Assembly (NCBI RefSeq): GCF_032878975.1
Contig: NZ_CP043875.1
Span: 1,790,370-1,854,369 of the forward strand
Source: Methanoplanus sp. FWC-SCC4
GTDB lineage: Archaea > Halobacteriota > Methanomicrobia > Methanomicrobiales > Methanomicrobiaceae
Reading direction: 5' to 3'
DNA: 64,000 bases
The notes under the pieces are model-generated. The model was not told the origin of the DNA. It made no database searches and saw only the letters and a list, made by a program, of their open reading frames with translations. The first letter of the stretch is position 1. Each line of letters begins with the position of its first letter. Below are positions 18,580-21,889 of this stretch, piece after piece. Made by a program: the position numbers and the translations under genes.

Positions 18580-18590
18580 AATATATATAA
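18580..18590 (+). promoter_or_regulatory. TATA box of the pilin gene
   Basis: AATATATATAA predicts a transcription start near 18612 and a leader of about 85 bases that includes the hairpin at 18650-18683. Confidence 0.55.
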
Positions 18591-18649
18591 GAGAATTTTG
18601 CAAACTCTTTTTTGTATAATTCAATTTAAATTTTTGATTTTCAGCCTTA

Positions 18650-18683
18650 TGTGAAAATCTATGCATACAATAGATTTTTCACA
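18650..18683 (+). promoter_or_regulatory. 13-bp leader hairpin before the pilin ribosome-binding site
   Basis: TGTGAAAATCTAT (18650-18662) pairs with ATAGATTTTTCACA (18670-18683), with one bulged T and a 7-base loop. The stem ends immediately before GGGATGTG, the likely ribosome-binding site, 15 bases upstream of the ATG. An RNA switch or a transcript-stability element are both possible. Confidence 0.55.
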
Positions 18684-18698
18684 GGGATGTGCATTTGA

Positions 18699-19103
18699 AT
18701 GAGCAGGTATAATAAAATCAATACTATCAAAGATGAAGAGGCTGTATCCCCGGTTATCGGAGTTATACTAATGGTTGCAATAACAGTTATTCTGGCGGCA
18801 GTCATCGCGGTATTTGTCTTCGGACTTACAGGAGATATGGACAGTAGTGTACAAAAGGATGTCAAACTTCAGGTTTCGACAAACAATACAGGTTTTGTTG
18901 AGTTCATTGTTTTTTCAGGAAATGATGTCAGCGAACTTGTAAATATTACAATCAGCAACGGTTCGGCAGGCAGTGATCAGTCATATCAGCATAATTTCAA
19001 AATAGGGGAGACTCTTACATCGCCTTTCAGGAAAACAGAAGGAGCGGTTGTTGCCACAGGAACTTTTGCTGACGGGAGCCGGCAGGTTCTTGCCAGGACC
19101 TGA
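18699..19103 (+). CDS. Archaeal type IV pilin
   Basis: This 134-residue protein has the archaeal Pilin_N (DUF1628) signature: a short charged leader ending in DEEAVSPVIGVILMVAITVI, followed by a continuous hydrophobic helix (VSPVIGVILM...VFVFGL, about 16-45). The class III signal peptide should be cut by the prepilin peptidase before the AVSPV segment, and the helix then forms the filament core. The remainder is a small beta-rich head with several Asn residues. Assembly ATPase and platform genes are not in this window. The gene is followed by a strong terminator, so it is probably a single-gene transcript. Confidence 0.9.
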   Translation: MSRYNKINTIKDEEAVSPVIGVILMVAITVILAAVIAVFVFGLTGDMDSSVQKDVKLQVSTNNTGFVEFIVFSGNDVSELVNITISNGSAGSDQSYQHNFKIGETLTSPFRKTEGAVVATGTFADGSRQVLART

Positions 19104-21208: not shown

Positions 21209-21297
21209 CTTTGATAACTACTTGGAATTTTCATGTAATTTTTTTATGACAGAAAAATATATAGGGTTATTAGTCTAATATAAGCAATGTATATTCT

Positions 21298-21325
21298 CTA
21301 TCGTTCTGAAAAATCAGGACGATAG
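21298..21325 (+). promoter_or_regulatory. 12-bp hairpin upstream of the NYN-domain gene
   Basis: CTATCGTTCTGA (21298-21309) pairs with TCAGGACGATAG (21314-21325) through 11 Watson-Crick pairs and one G-U pair, closing an AAAA loop. A TATA-like ATATATAGG near 21256-21264 places the hairpin in the transcribed leader, 33 bases before the ATG. Confidence 0.55.
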
Positions 21326-21358
21326 ATTAATTTTCAGCAATTCTATATTTGTTGTATA

Positions 21359-21889
21359 ATGATTAATAGATCAGCCTTATTCATCGATAATGCCTATTTG
21401 CATAAATGTACTCCCCAAAATATTCAGATCGATTTTGAAATTTTATCTGACTATTTGTGCAGAGATACTCAGAAACTAAGAACATATTTCTATGACTGTA
21501 TGCCTTACCAGAGCAATCCATCTACAGAAAATGAAAAAATAAAATATTCACAATATAGCAAATTTATCTCTGTTATTGAAAAATTACCCCGATTTCAAAC
21601 GAGATTTGGGAAACTAAGCAAAAGAGAAGATGGCTCCTTTGAACAGAAAAGAGTTGATATTTTACTGGCGGTTGAACTTGTAAGGCTGAGCTGGTCAAAA
21701 CAAATAGGTCATGCGATAATTATTGCCGGAGACAGTGATTTCGTACCTGCCATTGAAGCCGCCAAAGATGCAGGTGTTATCGTATCTCTGTATTATTCAA
21801 ACCAGTCTATTCACAACGAATTATTATCCTCAGTTGATGAGAGATATTTAATGGGTGAAGATTTTTTTAACACTGTGAAAAGGCAATAA
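21359..21889 (+). CDS. NYN (PIN-like) domain protein, LabA/DUF88 family
   Basis: This 176-residue protein has the NYN-domain pattern of a PIN-like nuclease fold. The first strand carries the acidic residue (ALFIDNAYL, Asp10), followed by KRVDILLAVELVRLS with a central Asp, and then IIAGDSDFVPAIEAAKDAG with the GDSD cluster. These acidic residues normally bind Mg2+ for RNA cleavage. There is no extra nucleic-acid-binding domain. It is transcribed alone after tRNA-Ser. The lower GC content than its neighbours and the structured leader set it apart, and recent acquisition is possible. Targets are unknown. Confidence 0.85.
   Translation: MINRSALFIDNAYLHKCTPQNIQIDFEILSDYLCRDTQKLRTYFYDCMPYQSNPSTENEKIKYSQYSKFISVIEKLPRFQTRFGKLSKREDGSFEQKRVDILLAVELVRLSWSKQIGHAIIIAGDSDFVPAIEAAKDAGVIVSLYYSNQSIHNELLSSVDERYLMGEDFFNTVKRQ

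Follow-up and report, generated by a model that had tools for sequence, protein, structure and literature searches.

The window, as we call the whole 64-kb stretch of DNA that was analyzed, carries a pilin gene flanked on one side by a TctA-family permease gene, which is encoded on the other strand, and followed downstream by hemD and then by a truB-like gene (named from a reading of its translation). The pilin gene and the elements of its leader are the following.

18582–18589, forward strand: TATATATA, the best TATA-box candidate (score 7.2, ad hoc matrix)
18625–18632, forward strand: TTTAAATT, the second TATA-box candidate (score 7.1), at −59 from the ribosome-binding site
18645–18647, forward strand: CCU, which in predicted folds may pair with GGG at 18684–18686 and so lengthen the stem by three pairs
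18650–18683, forward strand: leader hairpin, closed by T18650–A18683, with 13 Watson-Crick pairs, a single T bulge in the 3′ arm and the 7-nt loop GCATACA
18684–18691, forward strand: GGGATGTG, a weak ribosome-binding site (−7.2 kcal/mol predicted for its duplex with the 16S tail)
18699–19103, forward strand: pilin gene, 134 amino acids with a Pilin_N domain (PF07790, E 3.1e-18), ATG at 18699

The hairpin is made up of TGTGAAAATCTAT as the 5′ arm, the loop GCATACA and ATAGATTTTTCACA as the 3′ arm, and in isolation its predicted fold has an energy of −10.7 kcal/mol. The original prediction had described a strong 13-bp stem with one bulged T in front of the pilin ribosome-binding site, ending one base before it. 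Both the sequence and a stem scan confirm the stem; the spacing had to be corrected, as the hairpin foot abuts GGGATGTG with 0 bases between them. The stem is followed directly by GGGATGTG and not by the T run of an intrinsic terminator.

Scanning of the 64-kb window for Watson-Crick stems of at least 12 bp with no more than one 1-nt bulge and a loop of 3–10 nt yielded a single stem, the hairpin at 18650–18683. Ten block-shuffled windows contained 0–2 such stems each (11 in total, of which 6 reach 13 bp or more). About one stem of this class is thus expected per 64 kb, and the bare existence of the hairpin is not above chance. Over its full length of 116 nt the leader is likewise of ordinary stability (z −0.66; 55 of 200 shuffles fold equally well), and among 6910 overlapping 40-nt segments of similar G+C, 47, counting that of the hairpin, match or exceed its stability. 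The z score is −5.2 for the 36 nt that end at the ribosome-binding site and −3.1 (p 0.01) for the 45 nt that end there. The unusual aspect of the hairpin is its placement at the ribosome-binding site, which it has in common with the leaders of relatives described below. Two other places in the window were recorded on the way. A stronger hairpin, CTATCGTTCTGAAAAATCAGGACGATAG, at ~21289–21330 on the forward strand (~−18 kcal/mol in 40-nt segments) lies some 40–60 nt upstream of an NYN-domain gene at 21359, and an 825-amino-acid open reading frame at ~12579 on the reverse strand, with a secretion-signal-like start, lacks a notable hairpin in its leader (z −1.0).

In 28 family members, which include the window's own genome, a protein search detected the pilin 26 times, and within the order it was detected in 159 of 232 genomes, representing 31 of 40 genera (E ≤ 1e-10). 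From the pilin loci, among them the best 80 kept in a scan of named genomes, and from 60 short stretches, 109 plus 47 distinct leaders were taken, with 118 on the Methanomicrobiales side; most counts refer to 117 or 118 of these, one leader with an N being excluded. Loci gave no leader if the pilin motif was absent, if fewer than 110 nt lay upstream or if the leader was a duplicate. The Methanomicrobiales group comprises all loci outside a hand-made list of 27 loci from other archaea, and it includes one locus titled as a Paludibacter bin (L036) and some "Euryarchaeota" bins. Genus averages use our own working labels, with 6 leaders outside any genus, and the pilin leader sets of the 45-nt, sliding, gene-class and per-genus tests overlap.

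In the 117 Methanomicrobiales pilin leaders, 36-nt segments ending at the ribosome-binding site had a mean z score of −1.85 ± 0.14. Segments of the same leaders ending 18–78 nt upstream gave values from 0.09 to −0.21, reaching down to −0.39 further up, and 38 leaders of other archaea gave −0.13 at the site itself. When averaged by genus, 17 of 20 means were negative and 14 were below −1 (p 2.7e-5), compared with −0.08 for the segment 39 nt further upstream; three of the 20 genera (g10, g17 and g36) showed no signal. Segments of 45 nt gave a mean z of −1.78 for 71 Methanomicrobiales pilin leaders (p ≤ 0.05 in 38 of 71) and of +0.19 for 38 control genes from the same loci and the window (1 of 38). 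Leaders of the Methanosarcinales, ANME and Archaeoglobi type had a mean of +0.41, with none of 15 at p ≤ 0.05, and haloarchaeal leaders one of −0.12, with 1 of 23. A loose geometric count found hairpins in 86 of 117 leaders and in 1127 of 2340 shuffles (48%), and is only a moderate discriminator. A second well-folding region of Methanomicrobiales pilin genes, 66–78 nt after the ribosome-binding site (−0.83 to −0.92), sits within the conserved codons of the membrane segment.

The constant feature of these leaders is a stem-loop that ends, on its 3′ side, at the ribosome-binding site or a few nucleotides upstream of it; the sequence of the stem-loop changes from genus to genus. Our preferred reading, at about even odds, is that the window hairpin is one member of a pilin-leader class that runs through most sampled Methanomicrobiales genera. 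Even with a real class, the window copy could be a chance inverted repeat. The shuffle counts and the unremarkable whole-leader score given above speak for such a repeat, and the window leader stands without an orthologous leader among the relatives. Neither tctA nor hemD nor truB was present in the flanks of 28 relative loci (L004–L031; flanks of ~1.5 kb at most, some ending at contig ends), and no orthologous leader of the window pilin was seen among these loci. An alignment of the window leader with 13 near leaders (A4) was too divergent to be used. A transcription start near 18655, to which we return below, would moreover cut the stem. Against a chance origin, the window stem occupies exactly the position of the relatives' stems, where its z score of −5.2 is reached, and the other pilin gene of the genome also scores −3.3 at its site. 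We consider a chance repeat improbable.

Within the genes compared, the element is a specific feature of those for filament subunits. Free leaders were available for 135 genes of the fetched loci. Among these, the 46 pilin-like genes had a mean z of −1.73 with 20 at p ≤ 0.05, and the 23 archaellins one of −1.35 with 11 at this level. The mean was −0.08 for 61 other genes, with 1 at p ≤ 0.05, these controls being impure (three pilin-like and two mcrB genes among 25 read), and 0.02 for five mcrB genes, with none. A separate count gave −0.75 ± 0.17 for 64 archaellins, later operon genes included, and −0.58 ± 0.20 for 18 mcrB genes, so that mcrB leaders may carry a weak signal at most. Since strong expression is expected of mcrB too, expression level by itself does not account for the element. 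Pilin and many archaellin genes are preceded by it, and most of the other genes examined are not. Strong hairpins before the ribosome-binding site occur in the leaders of first-gene archaellins of Methanomicrobiales (L206, L207, L208, L222, L224, L228 and others), with loop regions that in some families read TTGGAGGGATCCAA or similar. The archaellin of the window's own genome (L216) has a weak hairpin, TTTCAT...ATGAAA, upstream of its site (z −1.11).

A covariance model (R1) built on the element of one subclade returned 25 matches up to E 1 in 18 genomes, with 150 of 377–865 candidates scored per genome. The 12 strongest matches (E ≤ 0.0021) all lie directly before pilin genes, as does one at 0.04, several of these 13 being in the training set; the remaining 12 (E 0.03–0.9) do not. 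Rfam produced no convincing family for the window region, the only match being mir-255 below its gathering score (E 0.32), and no match up to E 0.5 for 14 related loci.

Compensatory base changes in relatives, which had been proposed as a check on the stem, were found in one subclade. Alignment A3 consists of 28 leaders of one sequence type, hand-chosen from 30 with two L080 leaders excluded. Its 7-bp stem is paired in 91.3% of cells, compared with 26–45% for slid partners; 27 cells are altered on both sides, compared with 8.5 in shuffles (reached by 0 of 500), and five of the seven pairs show double-sided change (reached by 5 of 500). The number of further pair types is unexceptional, being reached by 71 of 500 shuffles. 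At one stem position 14 of the 28 leaders have U-G and 12 have C-G, and in family f5 one position reads, by eye, U-G, C-G, A-U or G-C in different leaders. The Methanoculleus alignment (A2; 4 consensus pairs) showed no covariation gain, leaders L006 and L014 differ by one-sided changes only, and alignments across genera were poor. Maintenance of the stem by compensation thus holds for the 28-leader subclade, and the window stem itself has no alignable homologue. In the A3 set (from L037, L041, L044–L048, L056, L057, L063 and L164–L180), most leaders have the motif ACA(G/T)TGTC directly 5′ of the stem; this motif may belong to the start region or serve as a binding site.

The same leaders bear on whether the element acts as RNA or as DNA, for instance as a palindromic binding site for a transcription factor close to the transcription start. 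In favour of a palindrome, the pairs of the window stem are mostly Watson-Crick, its position is close to the promoter, and over the class the antisense strand also folds well (z −1.36). The sense strand folds somewhat better beyond composition, however (z −1.79, p 0.001; lower in 72 of 117 leaders), it holds 140 G-U pairs compared with 79 on the antisense strand, and U-G is frequent at the A3 position given above. The register of the stem is, in addition, tied to the ribosome-binding site, and its sequence is not conserved across genera, so that neither the strand symmetry nor the conserved sequence of a DNA operator is seen in the class. The sense-strand bias points to RNA rather than to a DNA operator, and we consider a DNA palindrome very improbable.

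As to how such an RNA stem might work, the original prediction had suggested that it could block or expose the adjacent site, depending on temperature, a protein or a ligand, or protect the message end. In the 117 leaders the ribosome-binding site pairs slightly less with the upstream leader than in shuffles (0.36 vs 0.43, p 0.007), its total pairing being not reduced (0.578 vs 0.585, p 0.85), and the start codon is also less paired (0.40 vs 0.47, p 7e-5). In most leaders the site lies downstream of the stem; in the fold predicted for the window it is covered, with a pairing above that of shuffles (0.90 vs 0.56). A functional RNA stem next to the site is thus supported, and of the roles proposed for it protection of the message end is the most likely; blocking or exposing of the site is not supported as a general rule.

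A regulatory switch, in which a protein, a small RNA or another signal masks or unmasks the site and thereby sets the output of pili (and archaella), nevertheless deserves to be weighed. In the window the GGG can be covered by the CCU, the predicted pairing of AGGG being 0.93 for a transcription start at 18640 or further upstream and 0.23 for one at 18648; masking of the site is thus possible in this gene. In the f5 leaders, read by eye, the 3′ arm reaches into the site and overlaps its first GG. In the Methanospirillum-type leaders (L068, L072, L084, L131 and L179) the site itself appears to be enclosed in a small hairpin of the sequence CGCAC-TCAGGAG-GTGCG or a G-U variant. Judged from these sequences, both families would speak for partial masking in their lineages. 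The restriction of the element to filament-subunit genes would also suit a switch, and masking stem-loops have been predicted in archaea before, according to excerpts of two reports (PMC4292770, PMC5378194). Class-wide, however, the reduced upstream pairing of the site runs counter to masking, and stem and loop sequences vary between genera, contrary to what one conserved binding sequence would require. Melting is also not predicted at 45–55 °C: the pairing calculated for the window stem is 0.97 at 45 °C, 0.95 at 55 °C and 0.91 at 65 °C, and that of AGGG is 0.90, 0.85 and 0.78, respectively. A site held in structure, as in a thermometer, is predicted for the window GGG and is no rule over the 117 leaders. 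With the stem predicted to stay folded at 45–55 °C, the exposure by temperature that had been proposed is unlikely in the form of a plain thermometer. Overall, we consider a switch rather unlikely, and our analysis favours a constitutive 5′ shield over it.

The position of promoter-like boxes in relatives is what suggests such a shield. These TATA-like boxes cluster 61–70 nt upstream of the ribosome-binding site, where those of 54 of 115 leaders lie, and the stems start at a median of −33 and end at a median of −5 relative to it. The usual spacing between TATA box and start would put the transcription starts of relatives ~34–38 nt before the site. Taken together, the box peak, the usual spacing and the stem position would make for a typical leader that consists of little more than the stem-loop, the site and the start codon. 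Because the promoter-like boxes would thus set the start close to the stem foot, we propose, at about even chances, that the stem-loop is a constitutive, cis-acting RNA leader element that shields the pilin mRNA and presents the ribosome-binding site. At this position the stem would slow decay of the mRNA from its 5′ end and would keep upstream sequence off the start region. A stable and accessible message would suit a filament subunit made in many copies.

The window gene may depart from this typical layout. With the usual spacing, TATATATA would presumably direct a start near 18612, and the leader would then hold the whole hairpin. TTTAAATT, whose distance from the ribosome-binding site is close to that of the relatives' boxes, would presumably direct a start near 18655, inside the stem; a start downstream of the stem is what the original prediction had named as speaking against its proposal, and a start near 18655 would be such a case. 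The duplex of GGGATGTG with the 16S tail (a pattern found at 4 places in the genome) ranks 91st of 118 leaders, the median being −9.8 kcal/mol. The second pilin gene of the genome (L003, 1208005–1208403, reverse strand; 57% identical) has a leader hairpin of its own (z −3.3 for the 36 nt ending at its ribosome-binding site) and a strong site of −11.5 kcal/mol. Because the window stem can be extended by three pairs over GGG and its site is weak, translation of the window copy may be weaker than that of its paralogue. The weak site, the longer than usual leader implied by the best TATA box and the ability of CCU to cover GGG are consistent with a window pilin that may be the weaker or more regulated copy.

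Stabilizing 5′ stem-loops are known from the leaders of E. coli ompA and papA and of B. subtilis aprE. The likeness lies in a short leader, a stem-loop upstream of the ribosome-binding site and an abundant surface protein, papA being also a pilin gene. In those cases bacterial decay enzymes are involved, whereas the element considered here belongs to archaea, lies on mRNAs with predicted 5′ ends and extends over most sampled genera of an order. To our knowledge, few gene-specific leader structures have been described in archaea beyond reports on Halobacterium salinarum and Methanolobus psychrophilus. The leader of H. salinarum pil-1 (pilB1) resembles the present ones in that it belongs to an archaeal pilus locus and has a predicted stem-loop near the ribosome-binding site; it differs in that, as far as excerpts of the report go, a single locus is treated on its own, relatives not being compared, and both the site and the start codon lie inside the structure (PMC4292770). 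The haloarchaeal pilin leaders in our set showed no folding excess (1 of 23), unlike those of Methanomicrobiales. In M. psychrophilus, a methanogen whose leaders likewise have predicted stem-loops, these mask the sites in longer leaders, and long leaders were linked to mRNA stability; excerpts of that report concern another order and other genes (Hsp20, mta), with temperature-dependent starts and the site buried in the stem (PMC5378194). A search of the open-licence literature found no description of the pilin-leader structure class, in agreement with the earlier remark that structured leaders of archaeal pilins are little described.

Structured mRNA leaders are a known kind of element; the pilin-leader class across a methanogen order appears, as far as the open-licence literature goes, to be new. 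It is conceivable, though decidedly doubtful, that in Methanomicrobiales the type IV filament mRNAs, those for pilins as well as those for first-gene archaellins, share a leader class that is read by a common trans-acting factor and so form a post-transcriptional regulon for archaeal surface filaments. If true, such a regulon would couple filament output to growth or attachment. The leader structure can be predicted in most sampled genera, with compensatory change in one subclade, which makes its role in archaeal mRNA decay or translation initiation directly testable in culturable species.
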